From the IMG/VR virus record IMGVR_UViG_3300028864_000101, positions 1 to 23,832 of that record: a stretch of 23,832 nt of DNA; one strand, written 5' to 3'. Below the pieces are notes generated by a model that saw only the letters and a program-made list of their open reading frames with translations, did no database searches and was not told the DNA's origin. The stretch comes from a virus. The position numbers and the translations under genes were made by a program. Below, piece after piece: positions 1,664 to 10,877 of this stretch. How positions within the stretch are numbered: the first letter of the stretch is position 1; each line of letters starts with the position of its first letter.

Positions 1664-1912
1664 TTACACCCCCAAATTAGCTAATACTAAAGCATCAACG
1701 GTTTCTTTCAATAATTCTAATTCTGTTTTTGCCATAGTATCAAAATTTGTATTTGTCCCATCTTCATTTTTAACAGTAAATCCACTAAAATCAGATATTC
1801 CTTTAAAACTAAATATTTCATTTCCGCTAGAATCATATCCAATAGTATCAGTATCAGTTTTTATTATTGTATCTGCTTTAAATTCTTGATTATTAAAATT
1901 CAACACTTTCAT
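1664..1912 (-). CDS. Small conserved tail-region protein of unknown function
   Basis: An 82-residue acidic protein starting MKVLNFNNQEFKADTIIKTD, with GISDFSGFTVKN in the middle and a Leu-rich C-terminal helix (TELELLKETVDALVLANLGV). Small proteins of this build are commonly found between the tail fibre and XkdX in PBSX-like clostridial prophages; this rests on my recollection of the family and was not searched. The start codon overlaps the stop of the fibre gene by one base (TAATG), and its ribosome binding site GGAGGTG lies inside the fibre gene, indicating coupled translation. The C-terminal helix could mediate oligomerisation at the fibre tip or act as a fibre chaperone; that is a guess from position. 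Confidence 0.6.
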   Translation of the reverse strand: MKVLNFNNQEFKADTIIKTDTDTIGYDSSGNEIFSFKGISDFSGFTVKNEDGTNTNFDTMAKTELELLKETVDALVLANLGV

Positions 1913-3081
1913 TATCTAATAACACCTCCATAAGTTACACTTGTTGCAGTTGTTCCTGTAGGTTGAGTTCCTGCTTGAGCTATAACCGAACCATAGTCAA
2001 CTGCCAATACAATTGTATTAGCAGCACCACTGTTACTATCACTTATAATATGAGCATTGTAACTACCTTTAATCGCGGTTGCTTTATTACTTAGAGTACA
2101 ATTTGAAACCATAATGCTTGAATTTCTTGAAGCAAAAACTCCAAAAAATGAACTTGATGCAGTTGCAATACAATATAAAAGTTTTACATAATTACAATAT
2201 GTTATTGAAATACTTGTTGTACTAGTTGAATTGCATGTCAATCCTGTTATATTAATTGGTATAAAACTATTTAACATAGAAATAGAACCAACAATATAAT
2301 TCACTGCTGTCGTTAAAGATGTTCCACCATTTAATATCAAAGTTCCATATCCTAAAAACCCATTAATATTTACTGTTTCATTATAAGTTCCACTTGAGAT
2401 ATTTATAGTTACTGTATGATTAATCACTTGTGGTAAGCTATCTATTGCATGTTGAATTGTTTTAAATGCAGTTCCACTTGTCAATCCATCATTTGTATCA
2501 CTTCCGCTTGTAGAATTTACATAATAAGTAAGCGCTACAGTTGATTTATTCACCCTTTCTGACAATTGCGCAGCAATAGGATCATCTCCTGATTGAGCAA
2601 TTAGTCCTGCTTTTACTCTAATATCTGTTATATTTGAAGATACTATTGAAGTCACATTTGCTGCAACATATATTTGCGCTAATGGTATCGCAACTAATCC
2701 AGCAGGTATAGAAGGAACTGTTGGTGATGCTGCTGGAGTTCCTGTAATAACTTTAACTGATGGAGTATAAGGTGAAGTAGTTGTATCTATACAGGCAACT
2801 ATTAAATCAATTCTAGGATTAGTTGCATTGGCTGTTGTTATTGCCAGTGTAGCTAATGCATCATTAAATATCCTATATCCTCCTGGTAACCATGCATTTC
2901 CTCCGACTTGTCCTTGTGCTGCACCCGAAACCGTAACTGCCATTGAAGCAACTGTAGTCTGCGCAACTACTAAATCTGATGAAGATAAAACGCCTGGTGA
3001 TACCCAATCAGCTTCTCTTTGTAACATATCTGCTGGTGTGTAACCTGTACCACCAGCATAATAAGTAGCTTGTACTGACAT
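1912..3081 (-). CDS. Tail fibre / receptor-binding protein with right-handed beta-helix
   Basis: A 389-residue protein in two parts. Residues 1-165 form a baseplate-attachment-type N-terminus with SVQATYYAGGTGYTPADMLQ, INDALAT-like core strands (IFNDALATLAI) and RIDLIVACIDTTTSPYTPSV, a pattern common in phage tail-fibre N-termini. Residues about 185-380 begin with YYVNSTSGSDTNDGLTSGTA and FKTIQHAIDSL, the typical entry of a pectate-lyase-like parallel beta-helix, then Ser/Thr/Asn/Ile-rich turns (ISSGTYNETVNING). Such domains bind or degrade surface polysaccharide. No catalytic residues can be assigned from sequence alone, so enzyme versus plain binding protein is open. The ATG at 3081 follows a strong AAGGAGG. 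It is the best candidate in the window for the host-receptor contact. Confidence 0.78.
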   Translation of the reverse strand: MSVQATYYAGGTGYTPADMLQREADWVSPGVLSSSDLVVAQTTVASMAVTVSGAAQGQVGGNAWLPGGYRIFNDALATLAITTANATNPRIDLIVACIDTTTSPYTPSVKVITGTPAASPTVPSIPAGLVAIPLAQIYVAANVTSIVSSNITDIRVKAGLIAQSGDDPIAAQLSERVNKSTVALTYYVNSTSGSDTNDGLTSGTAFKTIQHAIDSLPQVINHTVTINISSGTYNETVNINGFLGYGTLILNGGTSLTTAVNYIVGSISMLNSFIPINITGLTCNSTSTTSISITYCNYVKLLYCIATASSSFFGVFASRNSSIMVSNCTLSNKATAIKGSYNAHIISDSNSGAANTIVLAVDYGSVIAQAGTQPTGTTATSVTYGGVIR

Positions 3082-3098
3082 TGTTCATTCCTCCTTAA

Positions 3099-3518
3099 TT
3101 AGTTAATTGTGATTGTTAAACTTCCTATTGCAAATGATAATGTCGCACCGCTTGATGCAACTACCTGAGGATTGTTTAGAGATGCAAATCCTAAAACATT
3201 TCCTGATGTTGCAGCATCATAGAAAACTAGATATCCTAGTGAAGCTGATGAAAGCCACGCTCCAGTTGATGTAGGGAATGTAATTGCAGTACCATTAGAT
3301 TTATTATTGGTTGAAGTCGTTGGAAAATTGGTTGTATTATTTGCAACTGATGCTCTTGCATACCCATTAGTACCTACTGTAGGCTCTGTGATATTTGTAC
3401 CTCCTACTACGGGTAAAGTTGAAGATAAACCAATATATAGAGTTGTGGGTGGAGTAAAATTAACTCCTCCAAACACCTCATTTACTAATGCATCCGCTAA
3501 ATAAGTTGTAAATGCCAT
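3099..3518 (-). CDS. Small fibre-like virion protein
   Basis: A 139-residue, Thr/Ser/Gly-rich, probably all-beta protein. It begins MAFTTYLADALVNEVFGG and carries LYIGLSSTLP, then ITEPTVGTNGYARASV, ITFPTSTGAW, and a C-terminal beta tail SFAIGSLTITIN. This succession (short N-terminal helix, YIGLS, EP..GYAR, FP.ATG.W, F..G.L.I) is seen in a widespread family of phage tail or minor virion proteins whose exact role is not established. It has a very strong ribosome binding site (AAGGAGG), shared in strength with the next fibre gene, suggesting high expression. It could be a knob or trimerisation partner of the adjacent fibres; that is inference from position. Confidence 0.65.
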   Translation of the reverse strand: MAFTTYLADALVNEVFGGVNFTPPTTLYIGLSSTLPVVGGTNITEPTVGTNGYARASVANNTTNFPTTSTNNKSNGTAITFPTSTGAWLSSASLGYLVFYDAATSGNVLGFASLNNPQVVASSGATLSFAIGSLTITIN

Positions 3519-3530
3519 AATTGTTCCTCC

Positions 3531-5981
3531 TTAAAATTTAGTTTTAATTAAAATATTAACAAATTGTTGAGTTTCTTCATATTTTTTAAATTGCTCTATA
3601 CTCGATATTTGAGTATTAAAAATAACCATTTCAAGTACATCTGAAACAGTTGATAAATTTACATTAACTGAAAAAGGTTGAACCGTTAATGCTTTATTGA
3701 TATTAAATTGTGTTTGTTCTTTTATATTTTTAATGTTGAAGATTTGTAATATATTACTATCGTGGATAACAGTATCACTACAATCTGTATAAATAGAATT
3801 AACTGAATGATTTATATCAAATATTTCTGTAATTTCTGAATTTTTAATAAAAGTACCTTTGAGAACAATGAAATATAAATAAGATAACTTTGCGTTTATA
3901 CTAGAGTTAGATACAAAATTTTCTACTAATCCAACATTGTTTTTTAAAGCTGCATTTAAAGTAGAATTGCTTATAATGTTTCCAGTTAATTTATTTGTTC
4001 TTGTTATAGACACACTTACAATTGAACCAATTGAAATATTACTAGAGAGTTGAGTTACATCCGTTATAACATCATTAATTTTTAATTCAACATGTATAGA
4101 ACTGTCTATTAAAATATTGTTTCTTATTTTTGCATTTAAATCTGTAGCTCCAGATATATTCGAAGTAATAATCGATGATACATTAGCTTCAATTACTGTT
4201 TCAACTTCTACACCAATATTAATACTTACGTCATTGAATAATCCATTAAATCCAAGCGGAAATTCTAATGGAAATTCAAATATTTCTCTTTCTTTAATAG
4301 AGCAATCTGCTTCAATTTTACTCTCGATAAGACTGTAAGTATCCGCGTTAATATCTAAATAGCTATCTATATTGCATTGTTCTAAAAATTCACTTTTAAT
4401 TAATCCATTTGTTACTGTATTTGCGTTAACTGGACCTATTAAATTCAATTTATTGTTAATAGTTGTATTGCTAATAGTTAAATTTAATCCTAGTGTTTTA
4501 CTAGTTAAAAGTGAAACTTGCTTGATATATGAATTAATACTAGAATTAACATTTACATTTTCATTTATAGAATATTTTGAAGTAATATCTGCACTTATTT
4601 CTACATCACTTTGCATATTTGAAGTCATTAAAGATTGAATGGAGCTATTAATAATAATTGAATCTGCATCTAGTAATCCAGGATCCATAGATACATAATT
4701 ATTTAGTCCATTTTTAAAATTCAAAGGAAATTCTAAAGGGAAATAAATCCTTTCTAAAACTTCAATTATACTTTCACTTTCAATTGAACTTTCGATAAGT
4801 TTGCATAAATTAGCATTCACAACCAATTCTGATTCTAAATTAGAAGTTTCTGAAAATAATTGTTCTGACAAACTTCTTATTGTTGTATTTGAATTAAGTA
4901 AACTTATTACTTTCAAGCTATTATCAATATTTGAATCAGCAATTACTTCATTAGAATTTAGATTACTTATTACTTTAGAACTTTGTGAAATAGATGATAA
5001 AATATTTACTGCGGTAATAACATCTGATTCTATTGCTAAATAATCCACTATATCAGCTGAAATATTACTATCTGATGTTAAATTACTAATACATTGTTGT
5101 AAGCTTAATAAAGAGCCTTGTACTGCTGAATTAGATACAACATTACTTATTTCTTTTAATTGATTTATGATAGTTGAACTTATTACTGTGTTACTTACAA
5201 TATTACTTGTAGCTTTTAATTGAGAATTAATATTTGCACTAATATTTGTATTTGAGTTAATTGTACTTATTTCACTATAAATACATGAAATATTTGTATT
5301 TATTTCTGATTGTGATTCAAGATCTACGCTCAACAAAGATGTAATAGAATTATTAATCATTACAGAATTTGATGTTAAATCACTTTCGATATTATAAGTT
5401 ATTGATTCCTTATCATTAATTAATAACGGAAACTCTAAAGGAAACTCCCAAGTTTGATGTAAATGTATTTCAGAATTTTGTATTAAATCACTTTCAATTA
5501 GATTTATTAAATTTCCTTGAATATTCTCATAAACACTTAAATCACTATCTAAATTCACATTATTGTTAACTGAAATTGCTATTGATGTATTTGCAATTAT
5601 ATTAGTTACAAGTTTAAATATAGCAGTTTCTACACTAATAATATTAGCGGTTGGATTAATAACCTGTGGTGCTAATAACTGTTTATTTGAAATGGTTGGA
5701 GCAATAGTAGAATTGCTTATTACATTACAACTTAACAATGAATTAAATAATAATTGTCCACTAATATTAGCAGTAGAAGATAAACTACTGTTCAAAGGAA
5801 CTATTGATATTAAATTTCCATTAATTGCACTATTAACAACTAATGGAGCTACTTCACTATAACTAATATTTATACTTTCGTTAGTGAATCTAAGTGGGAT
5901 AATTAACGGGAATTTGAATTTGGCAGGTTCTTGCGTTATTTTAGAATAACTAATTAATGAACTAGATATATTTGTTGCCAT
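3531..5981 (-). CDS. Large modular 20-residue-repeat tail protein, novel
   Basis: An 816-residue protein rich in Ser, Asn and Ile and poor in Gly and Pro. I do not recognise a named family. Residues 1-23 are a unique head. From residue 24 it is built of four modules, each opened by an F-P-L-x-[FI]-P-L motif: FPLIIPL at 24, then exact FPLEFPL at 180, 414 and 570. Each module continues with about 36 residues of linker and then tandem 20-residue repeats with consensus near xLkxISNlxSNtxIsaxIxx. Modules 1 and 3 are both exactly 156 residues, and module 2 is 234. A similar LIES segment closes modules 1-3 (residues 161, 395, 551). After about residue 755 a non-repetitive tail ends in IEQFKKYEETQQFVNILIK. 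Regular Ile/Leu spacing with Asn/Ser corners suggests a beta-solenoid or fibre shaft. Its place in the fibre region suggests a tail fibre or shaft. The ATG at 5981 follows GGGAGG. Confidence 0.72.
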   Translation of the reverse strand: MATNISSSLISYSKITQEPAKFKFPLIIPLRFTNESINISYSEVAPLVVNSAINGNLISIVPLNSSLSSTANISGQLLFNSLLSCNVISNSTIAPTISNKQLLAPQVINPTANIISVETAIFKLVTNIIANTSIAISVNNNVNLDSDLSVYENIQGNLINLIESDLIQNSEIHLHQTWEFPLEFPLLINDKESITYNIESDLTSNSVMINNSITSLLSVDLESQSEINTNISCIYSEISTINSNTNISANINSQLKATSNIVSNTVISSTIINQLKEISNVVSNSAVQGSLLSLQQCISNLTSDSNISADIVDYLAIESDVITAVNILSSISQSSKVISNLNSNEVIADSNIDNSLKVISLLNSNTTIRSLSEQLFSETSNLESELVVNANLCKLIESSIESESIIEVLERIYFPLEFPLNFKNGLNNYVSMDPGLLDADSIIINSSIQSLMTSNMQSDVEISADITSKYSINENVNVNSSINSYIKQVSLLTSKTLGLNLTISNTTINNKLNLIGPVNANTVTNGLIKSEFLEQCNIDSYLDINADTYSLIESKIEADCSIKEREIFEFPLEFPLGFNGLFNDVSINIGVEVETVIEANVSSIITSNISGATDLNAKIRNNILIDSSIHVELKINDVITDVTQLSSNISIGSIVSVSITRTNKLTGNIISNSTLNAALKNNVGLVENFVSNSSINAKLSYLYFIVLKGTFIKNSEITEIFDINHSVNSIYTDCSDTVIHDSNILQIFNIKNIKEQTQFNINKALTVQPFSVNVNLSTVSDVLEMVIFNTQISSIEQFKKYEETQQFVNILIKTKF
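3717..5912 (-). repeat. Four-module coding repeat array (FPLEFPL motif plus 20-residue units)
   Basis: Module boundaries on the minus strand are 5912 (residue 24), 5444 (residue 180), 4742 (residue 414) and 4274 (residue 570). Modules 1 and 3 are 468 nt each and module 2 is 702 nt. Inside modules the unit is 60 nt in a near-constant register, for example residues 61-80, 81-100, 101-120, 121-140, 141-160 and 161-180 in module 1. The repeats are clear in protein but diverged in DNA, except that the FPLEFPL codons stay nearly alike, so this is an old, selected protein repeat and not a recent slippage product. Confidence 0.85.
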
Positions 5982-6004: not shown

Positions 6005-6325
6005 TTAAATTAATGATTCTTTAATTGTTATAGAGCCTGTCATTACAATAGAAGAATTACCATCAGCAGTTGTAACTCTTACCATCTGTTGATATGTCCC
6101 ACTAAGAGTTTTAGTATTACTAGCTGTTAATAATACTGTAAATTCACCTTGTGTCGGATTAGATATTGTTATTCCAGAACTGATAACTTTAGATAATTTA
6201 ACAGAACCTTGATCTGTTAAAATCCATTTTATAGTTGCACCTGTTAGGTTGATAGGTACACTATTTTCATCTGTTACACTTATTTTTAAATTTCTACTAT
6301 CTCCAGCATATAAAGTTAAATCCAT
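6005..6325 (-). CDS. Small beta-sandwich baseplate/fibre protein
   Basis: A 106-residue protein starting MDLTLYAGDSRNLKISVTDE, with PINLTGATIKWILTD and a C-terminal beta tail SIVMTGSITIKESLI. The LTGATIKW..TD core followed by an ISNPTQGEFTVLLTA strand pair resembles the Ig-like N-terminal domain of BppU-type upper-baseplate proteins and similar phage beta-sandwich modules; the resemblance is from motif shape only. The ATG at 6325 has a GGGGGTG site that overlaps the end of the preceding gene. It lies directly before the 816-residue repeat protein and could connect it to the baseplate. Confidence 0.55.
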   Translation of the reverse strand: MDLTLYAGDSRNLKISVTDENSVPINLTGATIKWILTDQGSVKLSKVISSGITISNPTQGEFTVLLTASNTKTLSGTYQQMVRVTTADGNSSIVMTGSITIKESLI

Positions 6326-6331
6326 ATTATA

Positions 6332-6814
6332 TTACACCCCCACTATCGAACTAGATATATACGCTTTATTAGCTACACTTGCGGTTGCTGTTAATGTAAT
6401 TTGACTTCCTGCTTTTGCATTAATAAATAATGATTTGAGTACATAGCTTCCAATCTTATAAGCTTGTATACCTGTAGAAGTTGGAAAAGATAACCCTAAG
6501 TTTTCTGGTAAAATAGCTTTTGTCTGCACTCCAGTTACATCAGTATAATTAACCAATATAGTAACATTTACTGCACTTAATATTCTTAAATAGGCCTTTA
6601 TTTCAAAGTTTCCATCTGTAGTAGGTGTATAAGCTGCAACAACTTGAGAATTAGTAGAATTAATAATCAAATCTTTAGCAGATGCAAATGGAATATTTGC
6701 TTTAACAGCTAATATTTCTTCATTCTTGTCCCAATTACCATTCTGAATTTCTACATTATACTTTTCTGATTGTAAAGGTTTTTCAAAATTATAAATTGGA
6801 GTATGATTAGACAT
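6332..6814 (-). CDS. Short tail-fibre-type protein downstream of XkdU
   Basis: A 160-residue protein. The N-terminus MSNHTPIYNFEKPLQSEKYN with NGNWDKNEEIL just after is the kind of segment found at the start of tail fibres in PBSX- and Mu-like phages (TPxYxLxKPxxxExYDV-like), which attaches to the gpI/XkdU baseplate protein encoded immediately upstream. Residues about 50-160 are beta-rich and Thr/Ala/Val-rich, with IINSTNSQVVAAYTPTTDG and a hydrophobic C-terminus. It is much shorter than a full fibre, so it may be an adaptor carrying other fibres. The ATG at 6814 follows GAGGTG. Confidence 0.6.
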   Translation of the reverse strand: MSNHTPIYNFEKPLQSEKYNVEIQNGNWDKNEEILAVKANIPFASAKDLIINSTNSQVVAAYTPTTDGNFEIKAYLRILSAVNVTILVNYTDVTGVQTKAILPENLGLSFPTSTGIQAYKIGSYVLKSLFINAKAGSQITLTATASVANKAYISSSIVGV

Positions 6815-10130: not shown

Positions 10131-10877
10131 CTAACTTTCTACCCACGCACCATTTGAATCTACCAAATATCCATCTGGAGTATACGTATTAGCATACATT
10201 CCTCCTTGATCTCCAAAGTAATATGATTTACCATCTACTTTAACCCATTCATTTCTAGCCATCATACAATTATCTTTTAGATAATACCAAAAACCCTTAT
10301 CTAACAACCAAGTTGATTTTCTAGCATATCCATCTGAATCAAAAGAATACCATTCTCCATCTATTTGCTCCCAACTATCTTTATAATAAGTATAATTTTC
10401 AACATTTGTGCAATACCACCAACCAGTAGCATCTTGATTCCATCCCAAAACATAAATTTTACTTGTAGTTTCTCTATATTGTTTAAGTCCTAAAGAATAG
10501 TTATAATCTCCACGTTTATTAACATGATATTGAAAGCTCTCAATAGAAAATTTATCATTAATATATGTTGATCCATTTGCTTTTAAAATAACTAATTGTA
10601 TAGCTTCAGTATTATCAATAGCATTATTAAGTAAAGATATAATATCATTAGCCTTGTATGAACTTTTTGTAAAATTATAATTCTTTGTAGGTAGCCAACT
10701 TTCTAATGATAAAGTACTAAGTCCAGCCTTTTCTATAAAATTAAAAGTACCATTATCATATGTTTCAAATTCTTCATTTTTAATTGATCTAGAAATAGAA
10801 GGTAATTCACTTGGAATAATAGGTAGTTTTAATACCTTAGTTTTTTTATAATCTGCTAAATAAATATTATAACCCAA
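10131..10877 (-). CDS. xkdP: XkdP-like baseplate protein with C-terminal choline-binding-type repeats
   Basis: A 248-residue protein. Residues 1-135 match the N-terminal part of XkdP-type baseplate proteins: LPIIPSELPSISRSIKNEEF, a GLSTLSLESWLPTKNY strand and a YSLGLKQYRE end. In PBSX and most relatives this is followed by LysM. Here residues 145-248 instead hold four aromatic repeats of the choline-binding/cell-wall-binding type: GWNQDATGWWYCTNVENYTY, then EQIDGEWYSFDSDGYARKSTW-like, LLDKGFWYYLKDN and VKVDGKSYYFGDQGG with TPDGYLVDSNGAW at the end. Such repeats bind choline or related wall polymers. The start is TTG at 10877 with AGGGGGG upstream; an ATG is not available at a sensible distance. 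It lies between the tape measure and the hub gene as expected. Confidence 0.85.
   Translation of the reverse strand: MGYNIYLADYKKTKVLKLPIIPSELPSISRSIKNEEFETYDNGTFNFIEKAGLSTLSLESWLPTKNYNFTKSSYKANDIISLLNNAIDNTEAIQLVILKANGSTYINDKFSIESFQYHVNKRGDYNYSLGLKQYRETTSKIYVLGWNQDATGWWYCTNVENYTYYKDSWEQIDGEWYSFDSDGYARKSTWLLDKGFWYYLKDNCMMARNEWVKVDGKSYYFGDQGGMYANTYTPDGYLVDSNGAWVES

Follow-up and report, generated by a model that had tools for sequence, protein, structure and literature searches.

A modular 20-residue-repeat protein encoded beside a Gp80-family gene as the probable rope of a bead-and-rope fibre in a contractile-tailed phage

PDB entry 8JOU, entitled "Fiber I and fiber-tail-adaptor of phage GP4", contains 10 Gp80 chains of a Ralstonia podophage. 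Fiber I reportedly consists of an elongated rope protein that links five gp80 dimers. In phage LSH1, gp34, gp35 and gp36 have been described as a set of three proteins invariably found together; gp34 has a low-confidence tail that was considered uninterpretable and "maybe" repetitive, gp35 is dimeric and matches 8JOU, and gp36 is Ig-like (PMC13243795). Slicko01 was named there as a carrier of a gp34-like protein, and the 8JOU protein is described as a dimer forming a fibril that connects an adhesin with the tail collar (PMC13243795). The contractile-tailed Anabaena phage A-1(L) has a flexible three-part neck fibre in which a chain of many gp81 beads lies between gp82 and gp80, and a rope protein of the kind reported here is not described (PMC10966104). 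In Sf14, both whiskers have a whisker chain running through them (PMC11821841), and our fold search found a related Gp80-type fold in the Sf14 neck model (chain 9c39_K).

The locus analysed here resembles that of GP4 Fiber I in that a Gp80-family protein of the same fold is encoded beside an elongated repeat partner. The closest relatives of GP4 gp80, from BcepMigl, BcepIL02 and POI1126, likewise have a protein with a 20-residue period encoded by the adjacent gene. The present phage differs from GP4 in having a contractile tail with a baseplate, a repeat protein about three times as long as those of GP4's relatives and divided into modules by FPL joints, and a BppU_N-like protein in place of the Gp77 adaptor (PF23148). 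Given that the small sandwich protein of the window matches BppU_N and not Gp77, the fibre is classed as a variant that would work like GP4 Fiber I, and not as a member of that group. Searches with the repeat proteins of several relatives did not match the GP4 rope sequence in the PDB set, and the GP4 genome was not among the phage matches listed.

Gene content of the window and the fibre cassette

The window, i.e. the whole stretch of DNA that was analysed, is a complete IMG/VR record of 23,832 bases that carries a contractile-tail gene set on the minus strand and belongs to a Clostridia-type bacterial virus. The genes are arranged in the order terminase, portal, protease, capsid, sheath, tube, tape measure, baseplate J and a Gp48-like protein, followed by small fibre genes, a holin gene and a cut amidase gene. 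Names of the baseplate, fibre and holin genes are based on Pfam and PHROG matches, and the other genes were named by position and by analogy with annotated relatives. A tail protein in the LysM position (10131-10877, minus strand; phrog_5184, phrog_380 and others) carries choline-binding-type cell-wall repeats (PF19085, PF19127, PF01473) at its end; thus, this protein may bind the cell wall.

The gene for the 816-residue repeat protein P0001 (3531-5981, minus strand), identified as an ORF and by repeat analysis, lies within the tail-fibre cassette, in keeping with the original prediction. Twelve nucleotides downstream, and in frame with the repeat gene (one TAA and four codons lie between them; 3519-3533, minus strand), is the gene for a 139-residue protein (3099-3518, minus strand) that belongs to the family PF23140, "Podophage GP4 fiber I protein gp80" (E 4e-26). 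This protein matches PDB 8jou_a by sequence, and its model from the window matches by fold with E 6e-6 and TM 0.63 by target. Upstream of the repeat gene is that for a 106-residue protein (6005-6325, minus strand) with a BppU_N-like beta-sandwich (PF10651, E 6.7e-7), a domain that Pfam finds in this separate neighbour and not in the 816-residue protein; the neighbour does not match the Gp77-family adaptor PF23148. A 160-residue protein (6332-6814, minus strand) corresponds to the C-terminal portion of a tail-collar fibre protein encoded by the related contig L023 (IMGVR_UViG_2711768655_000002). The 389-residue tail protein (1912-3081, minus strand; phrog_4577) is a candidate for the fibre tip or for a separate fibre. 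Its N-terminal part is 58% identical to the L023 counterpart over 250 residues, after which the two diverge, and the protein is likely a host-range determinant. The swapped C-terminal part includes a weak pectinesterase-like stretch.

A cassette of four genes is common to the window and L023, with the 106-residue protein 59%, the repeat protein 39% and the 139-residue protein 84% identical, whereas the baseplate J proteins are only 26% identical, over part of their length. Hence, the cassette appears to travel as a whole between different baseplates, in the way of host-facing fibre sets.

Repeat architecture and relatives of the 816-residue protein

The motif F-P-L-x-[FI]-P-L was found by motif search at four positions on the minus strand, as FPLIIPL at residues 24-30 (5892-5912) and as FPLEFPL at residues 180-186 (5424-5444), 414-420 (4722-4742) and 570-576 (4254-4274), with start-to-start distances of 156, 234 and 156 residues. 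A LIES segment begins 19 residues before each of the last three joints, at residues 161 (5490-5501), 395 (4788-4799) and 551 (4320-4331). The original prediction had given the same module lengths and the same recurrence of both motifs, and all of its figures hold on recount. The N-terminal 23 residues (5913-5981, minus strand) that precede the first joint form the most conserved stretch, being 78% identical in the L023 relative.

Autocorrelation of the protein gave the strongest signal at a lag of 20 residues (z 6.3 against 500 shuffles), with lags of 4, 10, 30, 40 and 60 also elevated. An expectation-maximisation model of a 20-mer scored 406 on the protein, as compared with 214–265 on ten shuffled versions. 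Counted by module, in order, 5, 9, 4 and 5 units exceed background; thus, the spacing of 20 proposed earlier is retained but the proposed six units are not present in every module. In the remaining module stretches the spacing is kept and the consensus is lost. MAFFT alignment of the modules was too loose to set unit borders. Each unit comprises two short hydrophobic strands rich in Ser and Asn, and Ser, Asn, Ile and Leu together make up more than half of all residues. At the DNA level the repeat copies are old, the best identity between copies within 3531-5981 being 72% over 60 nt, with no recent tandem duplication.

No match to the 816-residue protein was found in Pfam, PHROGs or NCBIfam, or in the PDB by sequence, so that, as had been supposed from the pattern, no characterised family covers its length. 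Pattern scans with the protein gave no match either, and tblastn searches with P0001 and its L023 homologue P0002 against phages and plasmids were also negative, although repeats may be masked by the low-complexity filter of BLAST. Scans with the baseplate J and 160-residue neighbours as queries were nearly empty. A DNA pattern scan for EFPLEFPL returned mostly chance frames, some Dit proteins and one true relative, L023.

The Dit proteins are of the SPP1 type and carry FPLEFPL or FPLEFPF just before the C-terminal domain (in L006, residues 103-110 of the first plus-strand ORF; in L021, the protein encoded at 2957-3850). They match both or one of the Pfam families Sipho_tail and SPP1_Dit, neither of which matches the 816-residue protein, and in contrast to the latter they have different domains and lack the 20-residue repeat. 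A Dit identity for the 816-residue protein was thus rejected, and the shared motif, although it marks a joint in both, is probably a coincidence.

P0002, a protein of 602 residues encoded in the same gene slot of L023, is 39% identical to P0001. As compared with P0001, it lacks a stretch of the length of the 234-residue module and has a 21-residue insertion in the first module. Its joints begin at residues 24, 201 and 357, giving module lengths of 177, 156 and, for the last, 246 residues; the lengths 156 and 246–247 are therefore retained between the two proteins despite the low identity. The repeat protein thus varies in length both by a whole module and by about one unit, as seen in this one close relative and in agreement with the variation in module and unit number that had been anticipated. 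The FPL joints were found only in these two proteins.

Association of the 20-residue repeat with Gp80-family genes

Gp80 loci were gathered, blind to repeats, by a scan for relatives in viral contigs and by tblastn in phage genomes, and a locus was scored positive when a gene next to Gp80 had a lag-20 z of at least 3. A protein with a 20-residue period is encoded directly beside Gp80 in 18 of the 26 scored loci and is absent from that position in eight. Counted by gene, the period occurs in 18/50 Gp80-adjacent genes versus 4/227 other genes (Fisher p 1e-11, a value that is too small since it treats related loci, such as the close kin L040, L041, L042 and L046, as independent). L043 and L061, outside the scored set, also carry the repeat beside Gp80. 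Hosts of the Gp80 loci include Burkholderia, Pseudomonas, Ochrobactrum, Sinorhizobium and Mycobacterium, and further loci come from environmental contigs.

Among the loci with an adjacent repeat are those of Lessievirus, Ittyvirus and Namazuvirus podophages. In the podophages closest to GP4 the gene order is Gp80, repeat protein and Gp77 fibre-tail adaptor; the gene after the repeat protein in BcepIL02, Itty13 and POI1126 belongs to PF23148, "GP4 fiber-tail adaptor gp77". The virion structural protein of phrog_19041 (BcepIL02 gp56) shares with P0001 the 20-residue period, the position adjoining Gp80 and the association with the virion, and neither P0001 nor P0002 matches the phrog_19041 profile. 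The unit consensus ranges in composition from Ala/Gly-rich to Ser/Asn/Ile-rich, an alternation of hydrophobic and small residues being common. P0001 exceeds most of the repeat proteins found three- to fourfold in length, and its repeats are more irregular.

Shorter repeat proteins (L040, L041, L042, L043, L046 and L048) start with a GYGxxxYGxxxYG-like motif, and several of them end in short Trp-containing repeats (DxAxW). Both features are absent from P0001 and perhaps represent different anchors and tips. A Gp80-like gene occurs in 392 Mycobacterium phage records. Mycobacteriophage minor tail proteins (phrog_416, phrog_9784) encoded beside Gp80 homologues, as in L061 (3789-4949) and L062 (5340-7640), have the 20-residue period and, unlike P0001, carry the repeat fused to a Gly_rich_2 domain. 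In Sporosarcina phage Lietuvens (L054, 7397-8317, plus strand), the gene following Gp80 encodes a Gp48-like baseplate protein whose first ~120 residues resemble by eye about five degenerate 20-residue units (lag-20 z of the whole protein 1.6); a direct fusion of rope and baseplate protein is possible.

If the repeat protein is a chain that carries Gp80 beads, the gp34-like protein of Slicko01 should have the 20-residue repeat as well. As predicted beforehand, WGH49683 of Slicko01 contains such a repeat over its ~800 C-terminal residues, with z up to 11.8 at lag 20 and 13.0 at lag 40 in 200-residue windows. The next genes encode a 107-residue protein that is Ig-like by eye (no Pfam family scored above cut-off) and a 121-residue Gp80-like protein (PF23140, E 8.5e-4, below the curated cut-off; phrog_240, E 1.7e-9). 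That WGH49683 is the protein meant by the LSH1 authors is our own identification, made from its size and neighbours. LSH1 gp34-gp36 and Slicko01 WGH49683-WGH49681 thus resemble the present cassette in combining a 20-residue repeat chain with an Ig-like small protein and a Gp80-like protein. They differ in that the repeats form a C-terminal tail after large N-terminal domains (lyase-like in LSH1, another type in Slicko01) and in that no FPL joints were seen.

Proposed fibre and alternative explanations

Because the same repeat accompanies Gp80 genes in many other viruses, the 816-residue protein is interpreted, with a probability of about two in three, as the rope of a host-touching bead-and-rope fibre that carries Gp80 beads. 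The rope would have little fold of its own, and each 20-residue unit would be bound by copies of the Gp80-family protein encoded downstream, turning the chain into a string of beads whose number, and with it the fibre length, would be set by the number of units. The conserved N-terminus would be held to the baseplate, most likely via the 106-residue BppU_N-like protein encoded upstream, and the placement of the rope in the virion is likewise inferred. The FPL segments would divide the string into modules and may serve as joints, or else as sites for a further component. This arrangement accords well with the earlier idea that several copies of a small neighbour dock on repeated segments, but the partner is likely the 139-residue Gp80-family protein and not the 106- or 160-residue protein then suggested. 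Similarly, the docking sites are probably the 20-residue units, which are common to many phages, and not the FPL joints, as had been proposed.

For structure prediction, the repeat protein and Gp80 were folded as one chain with the intergenic stop read as glycine, a modelling device and not a claim of read-through; rows of other repeat proteins that were misaligned to Gp80 were dropped from the alignment before folding. AlphaFold2 gave pLDDT values of ~25–59 for the repeats and ~50–81 for most of Gp80 in the window chain, and of 28–59 and 64–94, respectively, in the L043 chain, whose repeats are far more regular. A confident solenoid is absent from both models, which were computed as monomers from shallow alignments, and no solenoid was matched in the PDB by fold or sequence. 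The low pLDDT of the repeats agrees with a rope that would fold only on its partner, though shallow alignments could give the same result.

These data bear on the beta-solenoid shaft that had been proposed originally. In a rival reading of this kind, with a beta-solenoid or a trimeric beta-shaft, each unit would be one coil, the FPL segments would be joints, and the rigid fibre would need no beads along its length. A constant-period repeat, a feature of beta-solenoids, is present in the 816-residue protein; 20-residue periods with two hydrophobic strands in every unit are common among beta-helical repeats, and AlphaFold2 draws beta-strands in the L043 repeats, at pLDDT ~42–59. However, the window model shows no solenoid anywhere along the protein, which, with shallow alignments and monomers only, is weak evidence against the shaft; the authors of the LSH1 study regard their own poor beta-helix model as doubtful (PMC13243795); and a shaft leaves the association of the repeat with Gp80 genes unexplained. 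A solenoid is therefore considered unlikely. The composition dominated by four residues, the low pLDDT and the location among tail-fibre genes would suit a long disordered or extended linker, or a surface adhesin, bearing the 389- or 160-residue protein as receptor-binding protein, with the repeat a low-complexity spacer and the adjacency to Gp80 a result of general clustering of tail-fibre genes. Yet a strict 20-residue period recurs in unrelated compositions and is rare in tail genes not adjacent to Gp80, and the lengths of two modules are preserved in the L023 relative, which makes a mere spacer quite improbable.

Assembly factors are encoded in some fibre cassettes, and the 816-residue protein could accordingly be a fibre chaperone or an assembly scaffold outside the mature virion. 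This role is very improbable, as the equivalent gene products are annotated as virion-associated or virion structural in BcepMigl and BcepIL02 and as minor tail proteins in mycobacteriophages.

Beyond the window, it is proposed tentatively that ropes with 20-residue repeats form a widespread family and are the regular companions of Gp80 in podo-, myo- and siphophages, with Gram-positive as well as Gram-negative hosts. Bead number would be programmed by the number of units in the manner of a tape measure for an appendage, and in the Clostridia branch FPL joints would segment the rope, whole modules being gained or lost. What is new is that an unnamed repeat family is recognised as the regular companion of Gp80, together with a long, modular, FPL-jointed version of it in a contractile-tailed phage. 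A function is thereby offered for repeat proteins that have no class name in any family library, and the low-confidence region left uninterpreted by the LSH1 authors gains an explanation. Phages with other tail types probably make common use of a fibre design whose atomic structure is known from one podophage.
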